Positions 23,845-31,978 of a stretch of 64,000 bases of DNA are shown piece by piece. Source of the stretch: Tistrella mobilis (GTDB taxonomy: Bacteria > Pseudomonadota > Alphaproteobacteria > Tistrellales > Tistrellaceae); contig NZ_CP121017.1 in NCBI RefSeq assembly GCF_041468085.1, positions 496,001-560,000 of the forward strand. Reading direction: 5' to 3'. The translations under genes were made by a program, and so were the position numbers. Position 1 is the stretch's first letter, and every line of letters begins with the position of its first letter. The notes under the pieces are model-generated. The model was not told where the DNA came from, did no database searches, and worked only from the letters and a program-made list of their open reading frames with translations.

Positions 23845-24189
23845 ATGACCAGGATCCGCAGACCCGCCATGCATGATGCTTCGGATGCCTTCGCGACCAC
23901 AGTTGCGGAGCGTGGCGCTGCGCCGGATGCCAAGGCCAGCATCAATCTCAGGATTGATGCCGGAACCCGGCAGCTCATCGACGAGGCAGCGCAGGCACTG
24001 GGCAAGACCCGCACCGAGTTCATGGTCGAAAGTGCCCGCAGTCTCGCCATTGACGTGATCCTCGACCAGCGGCTCTTTCTGCTCGATCCGGCGCGTTACG
24101 ACGCCTTTCTGCAGGTGCTCGACAATCCCCCCGCGCCCGGACCGAAGCTCCGCAAACTCGTCAAGCGGACACCGGCATGGGAGAAATAG
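23845..24189 (+). CDS. tacA: DUF1778 (TacA-type) antitoxin
   Basis: A 114-residue ribbon-helix-helix antitoxin. The DNA-binding part, KASINLRIDAGTRQLIDEAA, followed by LGKTRTEFMVESA, matches the DUF1778 pattern, and the C-terminal tail (DPARYDAFLQVLDNPPAPG) is the part that binds and blocks the toxin in this family. The first eight residues may be leader if ATG 23869 is the real start. The gene overlaps the toxin gene by 13 bp. Base composition around the pair is less GC-rich than its neighbours, which fits a mobile module. Confidence 0.9.
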   Translation: MTRIRRPAMHDASDAFATTVAERGAAPDAKASINLRIDAGTRQLIDEAAQALGKTRTEFMVESARSLAIDVILDQRLFLLDPARYDAFLQVLDNPPAPGPKLRKLVKRTPAWEK

Positions 24190-24704
24190 GCGGCGAGATC
24201 GAGGGTGGAGAGGCGCTGACCTCTCCCCAGCCCATCAGCCCTGAGCATGATTTATCAACTTTTGGTTGCGGATCGCCTGAGCTGGATGCCTGGCTGCGGC
24301 ATCGTGCCCTCCGCAACGAAGGCCGTTTCTCAAGAACCTATGTGATGTGCCGCGGCCGGAAGGTGGTTGGCTATTACTGCATTTCAGCGGGGGCTCTCGG
24401 GCGTGCTGCCGTTCCCGGCAAGCTGCGTCGGAATGCCCCCGACATGATACCTGTGTCGGTCATCGGCCGTCTGGCGGTCAGCCTGGATCACGCCGGGCAG
24501 GGCCTCGGCGCCGATCTGTTGTTGGACGCGTTTGGTCGTATCGCCGCCGCATCTCGCACCCTTGGCATAAGTGCCGTGCTCGTACAGGCGAAGGACGAAC
24601 GCGCGAAGCGCTTCTACCTGAACTGCGCTGATTTCATCGAGTACCCGGAAGAAAGCCGCCTGCTCCTGCTTCCGATCGAGACGGTCATCGCGGCCTTCAG
24701 CTGA
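24177..24704 (+). CDS. tacT: GNAT-family (TacT-type) toxin acetyltransferase
   Basis: A 175-residue GNAT acetyltransferase of the TacT/AtaT type; such toxins acetylate the amino acid on charged tRNA and stop translation. The opening block contains FGCGSPELDAWLRHRAL, and the acetyl-CoA loop is present as HAGQGLGADLLLDAF (Q-G-x-G-A form). The catalytic tyrosine lies in AKRFYLNCADF near the C terminus. It overlaps the DUF1778 antitoxin gene and, at its 3' end, the convergent reductase-like gene by 8 bp. The specific tRNA target cannot be predicted. Confidence 0.9.
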   Translation: MGEIGGEIEGGEALTSPQPISPEHDLSTFGCGSPELDAWLRHRALRNEGRFSRTYVMCRGRKVVGYYCISAGALGRAAVPGKLRRNAPDMIPVSVIGRLAVSLDHAGQGLGADLLLDAFGRIAAASRTLGISAVLVQAKDERAKRFYLNCADFIEYPEESRLLLLPIETVIAAFS

Positions 24705-25866
24705 CGCTGACTGGACGTGTCGGAGAGGCTGAGGAGGGCAGCTCGTCCGCCTCTTTGATCGCCAGCCGGAAACTCTCCACCGGCCGCCCGAAACAGCGTG
24801 GTGCCGGGGGTTCGAAGCCGATGCCGGTCATCAGGGTTTCGACCTCGGCGAGGTTGGCGTCGTCGATGACGAACCAGTCGCGTGCGGCAAGCTCGGTGCG
24901 GCCCTGGCGGTGGATGGCGTGGTGCAGGGTCATGGCTTCGGCGAAGCAGCCGAAGACCACGCCGCGCGACAGGGTGAGCTTGCGCCACGAGAAGGCGCCC
25001 AGCACGTAACGCAGCCGCCGGGCATGGCCGTTGCCGGCATCCTGGCGCACCACCACCGCCTTCTCGCGTTCATAGACCGCCTGATCCAGATTGGCGGGCT
25101 CCGCCACATCGACCACCAGCAGGCGGCGGCCGGGGCGGCGTAGCATCGCGATGCCCTCGGCCGTCAGCTTCGAGGCGTCGTTATGGGTGCAGGCGATCAC
25201 CGCATCGACCCGGCCGACCCGGTCGAGATCGGTGGTGGTGGCGATGCCGAAGCCCGAGGCGGTCTCTGCCAGCGCGGCCGGGTTGGCGCCGTAGCCAACC
25301 ACCTCGAAGCCGTCGTCGACCAGCCGGCGGGTGATCATCGTGCCCAGAATGCCATAGGGGCAGATCACCATCACCCGCGCCCGGCCGGGGGCGAGATCCG
25401 CGCGGGTGAGGGCCGCACGAACATCCCGGGCCAGCAGGCTGGAGGTGCCGTTGTCGCCGATGGTGAAGACCAGGTTGGGGAACATCTCCTTCAGCGCCCG
25501 GCCGTCGCGGCCGAACAGCCGCTTGGTGGAGGCGGCGAGCAGCACCGTGCGGGCGCCGCGGGCCTCTGCCCACTGGCAGGCGGCGATGAAGCGGTCGCGG
25601 GCGTCGCGGCGGCCATCCTTGGTCATCATCTCGGCCGCGGTCACGTAGATCCCCCGCACCCGGCCGGCGACACCGTCCAGATGCATGCGCGGGCCGTTGG
25701 CATGACCCAGCACCGGCGCCCTGCGGCCGAAGAAGCGCCGCCGGTCGGCCTCGTCGCGCAGATTGGTGATGAACACCACATCGACCTCGGGCCGCCCGGT
25801 CGCGATCCGCAGCCAGCCCCGCCAGTCCGCAAGGGCGACCAGTCCCCGCCAGATGTCACTCAACAT
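24697..25866 (-). CDS. Acyl-ACP-reductase-like (AAR-like) Rossmann-fold protein
   Basis: A 389-residue protein resembling long-chain acyl-[acyl-carrier-protein] reductase, the cyanobacterial enzyme that makes fatty aldehydes. Shared features, judged by eye from memory of the cyanobacterial sequence, are the mid segment FTIGDNGTSSLLA, a nucleotide-binding strand-loop with CPYGILGTMITRRL at 169-182, and VVFGCFAEAM with C307 where the catalytic Cys lies in cyanobacterial AAR (FACFAEAM). The N terminus diverges and the protein is about 50 residues longer. No aldehyde deformylating oxygenase gene is nearby. The gene stands alone on the minus strand. It could be a different thioester reductase or a shikimate-dehydrogenase-like enzyme. 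Confidence 0.6.
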   Translation of the reverse strand: MLSDIWRGLVALADWRGWLRIATGRPEVDVVFITNLRDEADRRRFFGRRAPVLGHANGPRMHLDGVAGRVRGIYVTAAEMMTKDGRRDARDRFIAACQWAEARGARTVLLAASTKRLFGRDGRALKEMFPNLVFTIGDNGTSSLLARDVRAALTRADLAPGRARVMVICPYGILGTMITRRLVDDGFEVVGYGANPAALAETASGFGIATTTDLDRVGRVDAVIACTHNDASKLTAEGIAMLRRPGRRLLVVDVAEPANLDQAVYEREKAVVVRQDAGNGHARRLRYVLGAFSWRKLTLSRGVVFGCFAEAMTLHHAIHRQGRTELAARDWFVIDDANLAEVETLMTGIGFEPPAPRCFGRPVESFRLAIKEADELPSSASPTRPVSVS

Positions 25867-25992: not shown

Positions 25993-27759
25993 TCAGCGGC
26001 CGCGGTGGGGAATGCTGATGGTGAACACGCTGCCACGCCCGGGCCGCGCCCGGATATCGAGCCCGAAGCCGGACTGCGCCGAGAGCCGCTGGACGATGTG
26101 CAGGCCCAGGCCGAAGCCCTCGACCTCGGCTGCATGGCTGCCGCCCTGGACGAAGGGGGCGAGCAGGCGGTCGCGCTGCGCGGGGTCGATGCCGGGTCCG
26201 TCGTCATGGACCTCGATCAGGATCGCGTCCGGCCGATGCCGTACCCCGGCCACCACACGGCTGCGGCCATAGCGCAGCGCATTGCCGATCAGATTGTCGA
26301 GGATCCGGGTCAGGACCAGCTGCGAGGCCTCGATCCGGGCGGAGGTGGGCATCAGGCGGAGCCGCATCCGCTTCGCCGCGGCCTGGGAAGCGTGGCGTTC
26401 GGCCAGATCCTCGAAGACCTCGGCCAGGTCGAGCGGCAGCACACCCGGCGTGCGCCGCGCGCCCTGGATCAACTCGTCGAGCATCAGCCGGGTGAGATCG
26501 AGCGCCCGGTCGACATGGGCCCGGACCCGGCGGTTGTCCTCGTCGTCGCGCATGGCGGTGAGGGCCAGGCGGATCGATTGCAGGGGTTGGGCGAGATCAT
26601 GGCCCGAGGCGGCGAGTTCCAGCTGTCGGTCATGGGCGATGCGCAGTGCCTGATACTTGTCGACCTCGGCGCGGGCGAGTTCCTCGGCATCGATCAGCCG
26701 CAGCCGCAGCGCCGTTTCCGCCTGTGCACGCGCAACGCGCACCCGGTCGGCCAGGGCGCCGGCGAAACAGGCGGCCTCGATCAGATAGCCGAGTTTGGGA
26801 TAGAGGAAGACATCGCCGCCGGGAAGCGGGACGCCCCCGACCACCCCGGCCCCGAAGGCGAGGTTCACGAACAGCACCAGGGCGGCGGCGCCGGCCAGGA
26901 AGAAGCGGGCGCCGGCCACCCCGTCCCGCACGGCACCCAGCCCTGCGATCAGCAGCAGGGGCGTGTAGAGCACCGAGAGCGCGAAAAGCGGCGCCAGCTC
27001 TCCGGTCAGGAAGAAGGCCGCAAAGCCTGCGGGCACCGCGGCCACGATCAGAAGCATGGCCCGGCGCAGCCGCGGCGCCCGCCGGCGCAGATCGAGCAGA
27101 CGGATGGTGAAGGCCAGATGGGCGAGTTGAACCCCGCCCGTGAACAGGATCGGCGCCACCTGGTTCCAGGCGGGTGCCTGCGGCCAGAGATACATGAAGC
27201 CATAGCCGCCGATCTGCGCCAGAAAGGCCAGCACCATGGCGCAGGTCGCCACATAGAGCAGATATTCGGGGCTGCGCAGGGTGAAAAAATGCAGCAACGC
27301 CACCACGATCATCGCCACGAACAGGCCGAGCAGCACGCCGTCGAGCAGGTGCCGCGCCGCCTGCCAGCGGTCGTACTCCGCCGCGGGGCGGAGCCGGAGC
27401 TGCAAGGGCGTGTCGGCATGCAGCCGGTAGCCGACCACCAGCGTCGACGCCCCGGCCTGAAGCTGCACGGGCAGGGCCAGCATCGGTGCCGCGATCGGCC
27501 GTGTGGCGAAACCGCTGTCGGGGGTCTGGACCAGCAGCAGGCGGCTCTGCCCGCCGTGATCGAGCCGGACCAGCAGCGCCTCGACATCGGCGACCCCGAA
27601 GCTCAGGACGAAATCCCCTGGCGCCGTCGCCTCGACGGGCAGGGAAATCCAGCGCAGCGGCCCGGTTGCAGGGGAGGCGGCGGCGGTGCCGGTGGCGACG
27701 AAGACGAGCGGCAGCAGGCGGAAGATCACCGCGAGCACCCATCCCGCCCGGCCGGCCAT
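25993..27759 (-). CDS. 7TM-type sensor histidine kinase
   Basis: A 588-residue membrane sensor kinase. It has a signal-like N terminus, an extracytoplasmic domain of about residues 30-135 resembling 7TMR-DISMED2, seven membrane segments between about 138 and 335 (7TMR-DISM type), a short coiled region, the phosphoacceptor H387 in ASGHDLAQPLQSI, and an HATPase domain with the N box DNLIGNALRYG and G boxes DDGPGIDP and GFGLGLHIV. It starts 2 bp after the response regulator stop, so the two form a two-component pair. Ligand unknown; DISMED2 domains often bind carbohydrates. Confidence 0.9.
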   Translation of the reverse strand: MAGRAGWVLAVIFRLLPLVFVATGTAAASPATGPLRWISLPVEATAPGDFVLSFGVADVEALLVRLDHGGQSRLLLVQTPDSGFATRPIAAPMLALPVQLQAGASTLVVGYRLHADTPLQLRLRPAAEYDRWQAARHLLDGVLLGLFVAMIVVALLHFFTLRSPEYLLYVATCAMVLAFLAQIGGYGFMYLWPQAPAWNQVAPILFTGGVQLAHLAFTIRLLDLRRRAPRLRRAMLLIVAAVPAGFAAFFLTGELAPLFALSVLYTPLLLIAGLGAVRDGVAGARFFLAGAAALVLFVNLAFGAGVVGGVPLPGGDVFLYPKLGYLIEAACFAGALADRVRVARAQAETALRLRLIDAEELARAEVDKYQALRIAHDRQLELAASGHDLAQPLQSIRLALTAMRDDEDNRRVRAHVDRALDLTRLMLDELIQGARRTPGVLPLDLAEVFEDLAERHASQAAAKRMRLRLMPTSARIEASQLVLTRILDNLIGNALRYGRSRVVAGVRHRPDAILIEVHDDGPGIDPAQRDRLLAPFVQGGSHAAEVEGFGLGLHIVQRLSAQSGFGLDIRARPGRGSVFTISIPHRGR

Positions 27760-27761
27760 GG

Positions 27762-28367
27762 TCAGATCAGCCCCAGTTCGGTGGCGCGGTTGATCGCCTG
27801 GGCGGCGCTGCCGACGCCGAGCTTGCGGAACAGGTTCTCGCGATGCTTGGCGATCGTGCGGTCCGACAGGTTGAAGCGGGCGGCGATCTCGGCATTGCCC
27901 AGCCCCTGGCAGACCAGCCGCAGCACCTGGTATTCGCGCTGGGTCAGCGAGAGCGCGTCGGCTCCCGCCGCGATCCCCTCGCGGATCGCCTCGGGCAGCA
28001 CCTGCCGGCCGGCGGCGACCGCCTCCAGCGCCCGGAGCAGCGTGTCGGCATCGCCCGCCTTGGGCAGCACGGCATCGGCACCGGCCTCGACCAGCCGGGC
28101 ATGCAGCACACCCGATGTGGTGCCGGTCAGGATCACCACCTTCAGCGCGGGAAACCGCTTCTTGAGCCAGGCGGTGACCGAGGTGATCTCGGCGCCCGGC
28201 ATCTGGTAGTCCAGCACCGCCAGATCCGGTTCATGCGCCTGGACCAGGCGCCCGATCTCGCTGCCCGATGCGGTTTCGCAGACGATACGATGCGGGGTGC
28301 GCGCCTCGATCAGCATGCGGATGCCATCGCGGAAGATCTCGTGATCATCGGCGAGAAGAAGCTTCAT
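27762..28367 (-). CDS. NarL/LuxR-family response regulator
   Basis: A 201-residue response regulator with a receiver domain (acidic pocket LLADDHE at 4-10, phosphoacceptor D53 in AVLDYQMPG) and a LuxR-type helix-turn-helix (LTQREYQVLRLVCQGLGN, then EIAARFNLSDRTIAKHREN). ATG 28367 is chosen because the receiver fold starts there; the frame continues upstream through the next gene without homology. It lies 53 bp after sitD and directly before the histidine kinase, so it may be cotranscribed with the metal transporter. Confidence 0.92.
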   Translation of the reverse strand: MKLLLADDHEIFRDGIRMLIEARTPHRIVCETASGSEIGRLVQAHEPDLAVLDYQMPGAEITSVTAWLKKRFPALKVVILTGTTSGVLHARLVEAGADAVLPKAGDADTLLRALEAVAAGRQVLPEAIREGIAAGADALSLTQREYQVLRLVCQGLGNAEIAARFNLSDRTIAKHRENLFRKLGVGSAAQAINRATELGLI

Positions 28368-28420: not shown

Positions 28421-29290
28421 TCACGATAGCCGTATGCCGTGATCTGCGCCATGCCGGCCGCGTGCTGCCATCGCCGCCCGTTGACCGGATATCGTGAAGG
28501 CCGCCACGAAGCCGGCCGCCAGCAGCAGCACGATGGTCGGGGCCGGCGCCGCATCGATGTAGAAGGCGGCAAGCAGCCCCGCGACCGAGGCGGCGGCCGC
28601 CACCGCCACGGCCACCAGCAGCATCCGCCCAAGGCTGCGGGTGACGAGCAGCGCAATGGCACCGGGGGCGATCAGCAGGGCGATCACCAGAATGATGCCG
28701 ACGGCGGCCAGGGCGCCGACCACGGTGGCCGAGATCAGGCAGAGCAGGCCGTAATGCAGGAACCGGGTCGGCAACCCGACCGCCCGTGCCTGCACCGGGT
28801 CGAAGGCATGAAGCTGCAGGTCGCGCCACCTGACGACGATCGCCCCGGTCGTCACCAGCGCGATCGCCGCCGCAAGCAGGATGTCGGCACGCGCGACGCC
28901 CAGCATGTCGCCGAACAGGATATGGTCCAGATGCACATCCGGGCGGATCCAGACATGGAGCACCAGCCCCGCGCCGAACATGCCCGAATAGACCACGCCC
29001 ATCACGGTGTCGGGCTTCACCCGCGAATGTTCGCGGATATAGCCGGTGCCCGCGGCACAGGCCATGCCGGCGGCAAAGGCACCTGCGACATAGGGCAGAC
29101 CCAGCGCGTAGGAGACGACCACCCCCGGCAGCACGGCATGGGAGATGGCATCCCCCAGCAGCGACCAGCCTTTCAGCACCAGAAAGCAGGAGAGCAGCGC
29201 CGCCGGCACCGCCACCAGCAGAGAGATGACCAGGGCATCGGCCATGAAGCCGAAGCGGAAGGGGCCGATCAGGGCATCGATCGCGGTCAT
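28421..29290 (-). CDS. sitD: Mn/Fe ABC transporter permease (SitD-like)
   Basis: A 289-residue ABC-3 family permease with about eight hydrophobic segments and the family motif LLGDAISHAVLPGVV near residues 44-58. It pairs with the SitC-like permease to form the membrane channel. Its start overlaps the sitC stop by 4 bp. It is the last transporter gene before the two-component pair. The permease family is certain; the metal is inferred from the binding protein. Confidence 0.9.
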   Translation of the reverse strand: MTAIDALIGPFRFGFMADALVISLLVAVPAALLSCFLVLKGWSLLGDAISHAVLPGVVVSYALGLPYVAGAFAAGMACAAGTGYIREHSRVKPDTVMGVVYSGMFGAGLVLHVWIRPDVHLDHILFGDMLGVARADILLAAAIALVTTGAIVVRWRDLQLHAFDPVQARAVGLPTRFLHYGLLCLISATVVGALAAVGIILVIALLIAPGAIALLVTRSLGRMLLVAVAVAAAASVAGLLAAFYIDAAPAPTIVLLLAAGFVAAFTISGQRAAMAARGRHGADHGIRLS

Positions 29291-30147
29291 GCGGCATCCC
29301 CTCGGGCAGACGACATCCGGCGCCGCCGGGCGGCGATCAGCCCGTGGCGGGGGGCGGACAGGAAGGCGGCCAGAAAGACCAGGGTCTGCAGCACCACGAT
29401 GATCCCGCCGGTGGCGCCGTCCAGGAAATAGCTGGCATAGGCGCCGATCAGGCTGGTGAGGGACCCGATCAGGGCGGCGATGATCAGCAGCCTTGGGAAG
29501 CGGTCGGTGAGCAGGAAGGCCGTCGCGCCCGGCGCCACCACCAGCGAGATCACCAGGAAGGCGCCGACGGTCTGGAGTGCCGCCACGGTGGCGGCGGCGA
29601 GCAGGGTGAAGAAGACGAGCTTGAGCCGGGTGACCGCAAGCCCGATCGAGCGGGCATGGACCTCGTCGAAGAACACCACCATCAGGTCCTTCCAGGTCAC
29701 GGCCAGCACGGCAAGCGTGACGGCTGAGATCAGCACCAGCTGGAGCGTGTCGTCGGGCGTCACCGCCAGGATGTTGCCGAGCACGATCGCCTGCACATCC
29801 ACCGGGACCGGCGAGACCGAGACCATGAACAGGCCGAGCCCGAAGAAGGCGGAAAAGATCAGCCCGATCACCGCATCTTCTTTCAGGCGGCTGCGGCGGC
29901 GGATGAACAGCATCGCGCCGGCCGCGAGCCCGCCGGCCAGGAAGGCCCCCAGCGAGAAGGGCAGGCCGATCATGTACGCGCCGGCCACCCCCGGCACGAT
30001 GGCGTGGGAGAGCGCATCGCCGATCAGCGACCAGCCTTTCAGCATCAGATAGCAGGAGAGCAGGCCGCAGACCCCGCCGACCAGGGCCGAGACCCAGATC
30101 GCGTTGACCATGTAGTCATAGGCGAAAGGGGCGAGCAGGGCGGTCAT
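29287..30147 (-). CDS. sitC: Mn/Fe ABC transporter permease (SitC-like)
   Basis: A 286-residue ABC-3 permease, paralogous to the following gene, with [20 protein letters not shown] in the conserved loop and about eight membrane segments. It overlaps sitB upstream by 4 bp and sitD downstream by 4 bp, so the transporter subunits are translationally coupled. Confidence 0.9.
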
Positions 30148-31058
30148 CGCGGCACCTCCACATCCCCTGAGCCGTCGCGGCGGGTGGCGGCGCGGCCGCC
30201 ACGCAGCAGCAGCGGCCGCTCGTCATCGGTGATCACGCCCAGCGACCGGCCATCGGCACTGGCCGCTTCCAGCACCACATGACGGAGCGCGCCGCCGAAC
30301 GCCGCTTCCAGATTGCGGCGGGTGAAGACGTCGGCCGTGGGGCCTGCCGCCAGGACGGTTCCCCTGACCAGCACGCAGCGGTCGCAGAATTCGGGCACGC
30401 TGCCCAGATTATGGGTGGAGACCAGCATCACCCGGCCCTCGTCGCGCAGGGCTTCGAGCAGGGCGATGATCTGGTCTTCGGTGCCGACATCCACCCCGGT
30501 CATGGGCTCGTCGAGCAGGATGACCCGGGCATCCTGGGCGATGGCGCGGGCCAGGAAGACCCGCTTCTTCTGCCCGCCCGACAATTCGCCGATCTGGCGG
30601 CGGCGCAGACCGGTCATGCCCACCCGTTCGAGTGCGGCCGCGACGGCGGCATGGTCCCGCGGTTTCGCCCGGCGCATCGGCCCCATATGGCTATAGCGGC
30701 CCATCATCACCACGTCCTCGACCAGCACCGGAAAGGTCCAGTCGACCTCCTCGCTCTGCGGCACATAGGCGACCAGATTGGCCTTGAGTGCCTCTGAAGC
30801 CGGCCGGCCGAGGATGCTGATCCGCCCGGCTCGCGGCCGGACCAGCCCCATGATCGCCTTGAACAGCGTCGACTTGCCGGCACCGTTGACGCCGACCAGC
30901 GCGGTGATGCTGCCGGTGGGGATGCGGAAGCCGGCATCATGGAGCGCGGTGAGGCCGTTGCGATAGGTGACGGTCACGCCCTCGACCTCAAGGCCGGCGG
31001 TGGTCACCGGAAACCGGTCGCGGGCACGCGCGGCGGTGCGCGGGAAGGGGAAGTTCAT
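30144..31058 (-). CDS. sitB: Mn/Fe ABC transporter ATP-binding protein (SitB-like)
   Basis: A 304-residue ABC ATPase powering the metal importer. Walker A is GVNGAGKST, the signature is [16 protein letters not shown], Walker B is [12 protein letters not shown], and the switch His is in VSTHNLG. A C-terminal extension of about 40 residues follows the ATPase fold. It lies 20 bp after sitA and overlaps sitC by 4 bp. Confidence 0.92.
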
Positions 31059-31078
31059 CGCACGGGCATCCTGTCGGA

Positions 31079-31978
31079 TCAGGGACGGGAGAGTTCGTCG
31101 GCGATGCGGCCGGCGGTGACGCGAAGCAGGTCCAGATAGGTGGGCACCGGTCCGCCGGAGTCGGTCAGCGAATCGACATAGAGTACGCCGCCATAGCGCG
31201 CGCCGGTCTCTCGCGCCACCTGACGGGCGGGATCGGGTGAGACGGTGCTTTCCGAGAAGACCACCGGAATCCCATGTTCACGCACCGTGTCGATCACCCG
31301 ACGGACCTGCCGGGGTGTCCCCTGACCATCGGCGTTGATCGGCCAGAGCCAGACCTCTTTGAGGCCGAAGTCGCGGGCGAGATAGGAAAAGGCGCCCTCG
31401 CTGGTCACAAGCCAGCGCCGGTCCGCGGGCAGGGCCGCCAGCCTTTCGCGGATCGGGGCCGCCACCGCATCGATCCGGGCCATATAGGCCGCCGCATTCG
31501 CGGCATAGGTTCCGGCATGGACCGGATCGGCGGCCGACAAGGCGTCGCGGATATTGGCGACATAGATCTTCGCCGCGTCGGGCGACATCCAGGCATGGGG
31601 GTTGGGCTTGCCCTCATAGGGCCCCTCGGTGATGCCGATCGGGGCGATCCCGTCGGAGACGGTCACCGACGGCACATCCCCCAGATTGCGCAGGAACTTC
31701 TCGAACCAGAGTTCGAGGTTCAGCCCGTTGCGCAGCACCAGACCGGCCCCCATCGCCCGGCGGATATCGCCGGGGGTCGGGCTGTAATTGTGGATGTCGG
31801 CGCCGGGTCTGGTGATCGAGACCACCTCCGCCGCTTCGCCGGCGACATTGGCGGCGATGTCGGCGATCACCGTGAAGGTCGTCAGAACCTTCAGCTTTTC
31901 CGCGGCACGTGCCGGCTGGGCGACGGTGCCCAGCATCAGAAGGATGACCAGAACGGCGGCGAGGGGGCGCGTGCCCAT
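31079..31978 (-). CDS. sitA: Mn/Fe ABC transporter periplasmic binding protein (SitA-like)
   Basis: A 299-residue cluster A-I metal-binding protein with a signal peptide (residues 1-26, cleavage after ARA). The four expected ligands are H63 (ADIHNY), H128 (NPHAWM), E194 (SEGAF) and D269 (YVDSL). The His-His-Glu-Asp set is that of Mn2+/Fe2+ binders (SitA, MntC, PsaA); zinc-specific ZnuA has a third His and a His-rich loop, which are absent. It is the first gene of the operon, and a strong Fur-type box lies 16 bp before its start. Confidence 0.92.

Follow-up and report, generated by a model that had tools for sequence, protein, structure and literature searches.

The reductase locus and its neighbours

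The window, as we call the whole stretch of 64,000 nucleotides analysed here, comes from a Tistrella genome of 6.3 Mb. At positions 24697-25866 it contains an ATG-start open reading frame for a protein of 389 amino acids, which a family profile, an AlphaFold (AF2) model and a Foldseek search identified as an AAR (acyl-ACP reductase)-superfamily thioester reductase-like protein. The coordinates given in the initial annotation were exact; the coding strand is the minus strand, the plus-strand frame being broken by stops. The sequence features listed in that annotation were all found in the protein. The motif VVFGCFAEAM (residues 303-312; 24931-24960, minus strand) holds the candidate catalytic cysteine, Cys307, encoded at 24946-24948. 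The nucleotide-binding segment includes a dinucleotide loop, CPYGILG (residues 169-175; 25342-25362, minus strand), which takes the form GxxGxxG in most relatives, and the segment FTIGDNGTS (residues 134-142; 25441-25467, minus strand) aligns with FTTGNTHTA of the cyanobacterial enzyme SeAAR. An orthologue with 95% identity to the window reductase is present in T. mobilis KA081020-065.

Using a family alignment and profile of 12 sequences including the window reductase (A1), we found that Cys307 is invariant in 12 of 12 members, as are His228 and, within the loop, the final two glycines. G137, D138, N139, G140 and T141 of the FTIGDNGTS segment are likewise invariant, and the first loop position (169) is C in the window and T. 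mobilis rows, A in one relative and G in nine. Three homologues beyond A1 (G956, G988 and G1113) also have the cysteine and the active-site motifs intact.

The reductase gene is preceded on the minus strand by the genes of a two-component system. A 588-residue 7TMR-DISM sensor histidine kinase is encoded at 25993-27759 (PF07695, 1e-30; PF02518, 1.6e-20; a weak HisKA match), and a 201-residue LuxR-type response regulator at 27762-28367 (PF00072, 2.2e-17; PF00196, 3.6e-18, both scored with this frame extended slightly). The order of transcription is thus regulator (28367-27762), kinase (27759-25993) and reductase (25866-24697), with the regulator stop codon ending 2 bases before the kinase ATG.

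Other genes flank these three. Plus-strand genes at 23845-24704, for a TacA-like antitoxin (PF08681) and a GNAT protein, form an apparent toxin-antitoxin pair that is convergent with the reductase gene and shares 8 bases with its 3' end. The genes of a Zn/Mn-type ABC transporter, comprising a ZnuA-like binding protein, an ATPase and two ABC-3 permeases, lie at 28421-31978 on the minus strand, immediately upstream of the regulator gene.

Distant relationship to cyanobacterial AAR

To curated profiles the protein is only weakly similar. TIGR04058, the AAR model, gave 17.6 bits (E 0.0018), far below its curated cut-off of 449.7 bits, and reached an E value of 2.1e-14 against the best member of the reductase family. 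In a search with the single window sequence the PigE profile matched residues 67-365 (3.9e-5), glutamyl-tRNA reductase and prephenate dehydrogenase matched the mid-domain only, and PDB chains gave no significant match. The A1 profile searched against PDB chains ranked SeAAR first (E 4.7e-7). Its alignment places GCFAEAM over ACFAEAM of SeAAR, so that Cys307 corresponds to the catalytic Cys294, and in PDB entry 6jzz, a C294S variant, the mutated residue aligns at the same position.

The predicted structure led to the same relative. With the AF2 model (pLDDT 89.2) as query, Foldseek put SeAAR 6jzu at the top (E 1.2e-14, TMq 0.66, 17% identity over 361 aligned columns), followed by carmabin TAD structures, one of them titled with a disulfide between Cys and dephospho-CoA. 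As both the A1 profile and Foldseek rank SeAAR first, the AAR-superfamily assignment is right, and the protein is a distant member of that superfamily, not an AAR in the sense of TIGR04058. The profile and structure comparisons proposed in the initial annotation had AAR, and not an unrelated dehydrogenase family, as their best match, with Cys307 on the catalytic cysteine. Its description of an AAR-like protein with an active-site cysteine stood on profile, fold and alignment; a strict AAR is contradicted by the TIGR04058 cut-off, by the arginine columns described below and by the missing oxygenase.

A plain dehydrogenase was rejected, because the best Pfam and NCBIfam matches (Shikimate_DH, prephenate dehydrogenase and glutamyl-tRNA reductase) cover the nucleotide-binding stretch only, while AAR comes first by both profile and fold. 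The weak likeness to glutamyl-tRNA reductase includes a DVAEP-type stretch of the mid-domain, to which it is limited, whereas the cysteine of the window reductase sits at the AAR position. A second AAR candidate in the same genome (L004; TIGR04058, 21.5 bits) was discarded, as the match is confined to a short nucleotide-binding stretch.

The protein shares with cyanobacterial AAR (TIGR04058; SeAAR structures 6JZQ, 6JZU and 6JZY) the fold, the cysteine in (G/A)CFAEAM, the FTxG segment and, apart from its first glycine, the dinucleotide loop. It differs in its low structural-alignment identity (~17%), the unconserved arginine columns, the lack of an aldehyde-deformylating oxygenase (ADO) partner and the linkage to a two-component system. 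The earlier view that AAR-like proteins are mainly cyanobacterial proved too narrow, since PigE (prodigiosin), TamH (tambjamine) and KecF (koreenceine) contain AAR-like reductase domains in proteobacteria (PMC8341465, PMC9594044, PMC6498172). A conserved cysteine is reported for PigE and TamH. In these proteins, however, the reductase is fused to an aminotransferase and belongs to a natural-product cluster, whereas the window reductase is a standalone protein beside a kinase and a regulator. Pfam detected no aminotransferase domain in its 389 residues, neither of the fused type nor of the CqsA/LqsA type of PLP-dependent synthase.

Predicted chemistry and cofactor

In AAR the acyl group is bound on the cysteine and the aldehyde is freed upon hydride transfer (PMC7089970), and similar acyl-Cys/aldehyde chemistry has been proposed for the PigE and TamH domains, which are described as thioester reductases (PMC8341465, PMC9594044). 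Because the cysteine, most of the loop and the fold are kept, we infer that AAR-type chemistry is likely for the window reductase. SeAAR holds the NADPH phosphate by R189, R193 and R314 (PMC7089970). The equivalent columns are unconserved in A1 and read A194, A198 and A327 in the window protein, the R314 equivalent being the weakest of the three since it was placed by its offset from the cysteine rather than by profile alignment. Strict use of NADPH is therefore doubtful. For comparison, the thioester reductase domain of PtTamH is described as NADH-dependent (PMC9594044).

The initial annotation noted that no partner oxygenase is present in the window. This held genome-wide: at the PF11266 threshold no ADO was found in any of 13 carrier genomes (the genome of the window and 12 others), and the positive control, Synechococcus elongatus, matched in the same search.

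A kinase and regulator that accompany the reductase

Fourteen loci, drawn from alpha-, beta- and gammaproteobacteria, have an orthologous kinase adjoining the reductase (the window, L008, L009, L010, L011/L050, L012, L014, L015, L017, L039, L047, L048, L049 and L072; L011 and L050, both of 6407 bases and with the same gene content, were counted as one contig). The regulator lies next to the kinase wherever the contig reaches, L012 and L050 stopping short of it. In Tistrella all three genes are co-directional. Elsewhere the regulator is divergent from the kinase, and the reductase lies downstream of the kinase or is convergent with it (L009, L010 and L072); in L015 kinase and reductase are separated by two open reading frames, one of them for a HAD-type hydrolase. 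There were two departures from this arrangement. The 21-kb locus of a Vibrio carrier (L013) has no kinase or regulator of the cassette type, and the reductase of a putatively assigned Patescibacteria MAG (L016) has as neighbours a double receiver protein and a HisKA_7TM/GAF kinase unrelated to that of the cassette.

To examine co-inheritance we searched one family, represented by 251 genomes, with a kinase profile (A2). A score of at least 786 bits was reached in exactly those six genomes that have a reductase homologue (in one case the Cys-less pair described below), and the next-best genome reached 215 bits. Random placement would give six of six among 251 with a probability of 3e-12, a figure that describes linkage and is no independent test, since linked genes move together and co-transfer inflates co-occurrence. 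The reductase belongs to a rare and patchy cassette of LuxR-type regulator, 7TMR-DISM kinase and reductase, and this conserved linkage, the main feature of the locus, was missed in the initial annotation. The open-access literature search found no title or abstract describing such a cassette, though a description may exist elsewhere.

An MMPL/RND-like protein is encoded in 7 of 17 carriers, each time at the reductase locus, and the other 10, including Tistrella, have no MMPL match of that type. It is followed by a LolA-like protein (PF17131) and, in six of the seven loci, by an outer-membrane-type protein, an assignment based on one weak DUF1302 match and on similarity among the loci; the contig of G1016 ends inside the block. 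The Vibrio carrier has the reductase with all three transport-type proteins and without the cassette kinase and regulator. Overall, the kinase is linked to the reductase more tightly than the transport part is. No description of the MMPL/LolA-like/DUF1302 combination was found in the open-access literature searched.

Distribution and a lineage without the cysteine

The family is rare, with 4 matches, of which two are short and low-scoring, among 398 Pseudomonadota genomes. It was present in 1 of 369 genomes of the class of G178, 6 of 301 of the family of Ideonella and 3 of 43 of the family of Chitinibacter. Peptide patterns, a search method that favours close relatives, retrieved 10 loci from the GTDB contig collection. 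In a tree suited to placement only, with two very long-branched outgroup rows and no cyanobacterial AAR row, the Tistrella reductase groups with those of Chitinibacteraceae, with which it shares 63-64% identity. This grouping of an alphaproteobacterium with betaproteobacteria suggests horizontal transfer. A tblastn search of PLSDB found no match on plasmids. Carriage by phages was rejected: the sole match was weak (29% identity over residues 88-363) and lies on an unverified fecal scaffold labelled 'Bacteriophage sp.' (L073, MT835709.1), whose phage origin is doubtful.

One lineage departs from the family pattern. At L049:8478-10786, G1039 carries two tandem homologues of 380 and 381 amino acids, with the cassette kinase and regulator adjoining them. 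Neither has the cysteine, the full GxxGxxG loop or GDNGT, and the lineage is nested within the Inhella clade. The frames are open, with position-3 GC of 0.91-0.92 and a codon-position GC like that of the neighbouring genes. The first homologue was predicted to fold with the same order of elements as the family (pLDDT 83), although the alignment behind this prediction held intact homologues and was biased toward the family fold. The G1039 genome gave no MMPL match. Since the same kinase stands beside homologues without the cysteine, conservation does not always extend to catalysis, and in this lineage something else seems to have been retained.

Possible roles of the cassette

The reading we favour, at a probability of about 60%, is that the protein is a standalone AAR-superfamily thioester reductase in a horizontally spreading cassette and is functionally coupled to its two-component system. 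By homology, Cys307 would accept an acyl group delivered by ACP or CoA, and the enzyme thioester would be reduced with NAD(P)H to an aldehyde, probably with no strict preference for NADPH. Because the cassette joins the reductase to a 7TMR-DISM kinase and a LuxR-type regulator of its own, the enzyme's acyl-derived product or acyl-bound state may be coupled to them, in a direction that the alternatives below place differently. The evidence for this coupling consists of gene linkage and co-inheritance. Counting against it are the Cys-less pair of G1039, the Vibrio carrier and the Patescibacteria locus with its unrelated kinase.

The direction of coupling could be that of ordinary regulation, in which the kinase monitors the state of the envelope or of lipids and acts through the regulator to switch the reductase on. 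The product, a fatty aldehyde or a fatty alcohol, would then go into an envelope lipid, which in some lineages the MMPL, LolA-like and outer-membrane-type proteins would export, and no cell-cell signal would be involved. We consider this a serious possibility at somewhat less than even odds: the Vibrio carrier retains the reductase and transport genes without the kinase and regulator, and MMPL, where present, is always at the reductase locus, yet most carriers (10 of 17) have no MMPL and the kinase is the more tightly linked partner. The reverse direction, in which the reductase makes a diffusible signal derived from a fatty aldehyde that the 7TM kinase detects, appears rather unlikely. It would explain why an acyl-thioester enzyme, a dedicated membrane kinase and a regulator travel together between distant bacteria, and the lqs/cqs clusters are likewise described as combining an enzyme, a membrane kinase and a regulator and as spreading by transfer (PMC3376566). 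The likeness to CqsA/CqsS and LqsA/LqsS/LqsR is one of layout only, however, as the enzyme family and the sensor domain differ and no signal is known for the cassette; free aldehydes are reactive, G1039 retains kinase and regulator with Cys-less homologues, and synteny alone cannot tell a signal system from ordinary regulation. A fuller version of the signal idea, to which we give little weight, is an undescribed cell-cell or self-sensing system in which an enzyme of the AAR type, and not of the CqsA, RpfF or LuxI type, makes an aldehyde-derived lipid signal for the 7TMR-DISM kinase and LuxR-type regulator, with envelope transport as an option and a side lineage in which a Cys-less tandem pair has replaced the enzyme.

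In another reading the protein would be a binding partner that reports the state of acyl-ACP/CoA or NAD(P)H to the kinase, with catalysis secondary or absent. In its favour, both frames of the G1039 pair, which lack the cysteine and the dinucleotide motif, are open and adjoin the kinase and regulator, and the first keeps the predicted fold; against this, all 12 A1 members and the three further homologues keep the cysteine and active-site motifs, pointing to catalysis in those lineages, and we regard such a role for the family as improbable. A cyanobacterial-type alkane enzyme that feeds an ADO is disfavoured to the point of being highly improbable: it would fit the fold and catalytic cysteine that the protein shares with SeAAR, but PF11266 matched none of the 13 carrier genomes. 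The linkage within the cassette suggests that the reductase serves in sensing or signalling and not in making fuel-type alkanes.

In the papers cited here, AAR-like reductases of proteobacteria occur as domains within enzymes of natural-product pathways (PigE, TamH and KecF). A standalone branch with its own kinase and regulator would tie acyl-thioester reduction to signal transduction, and strict co-inheritance offers a concrete ligand hypothesis, namely that the kinase may bind what the enzyme encoded next to it makes. If the cassette is a signal system, the reductase would be a new enzyme class among the makers of lipid autoinducers; if not, the cassette would still pair sensor and enzyme in one compact unit, with transport as an option. 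Its interest lies in the strict linkage of sensor and enzyme and in the Cys-less side branch.

Further AAR-like proteins

The Patescibacteria locus (L016:1098-5508) encodes an intact reductase homologue with 43-45% identity. TIGR04058 also detected further AAR-like proteins in Pseudomonadota. The protein at L021 is standalone (387 amino acids), that at L018 carries its reductase part ahead of an aminotransferase-like region, and the matches at L019, L020 and L022 lie in large proteins.
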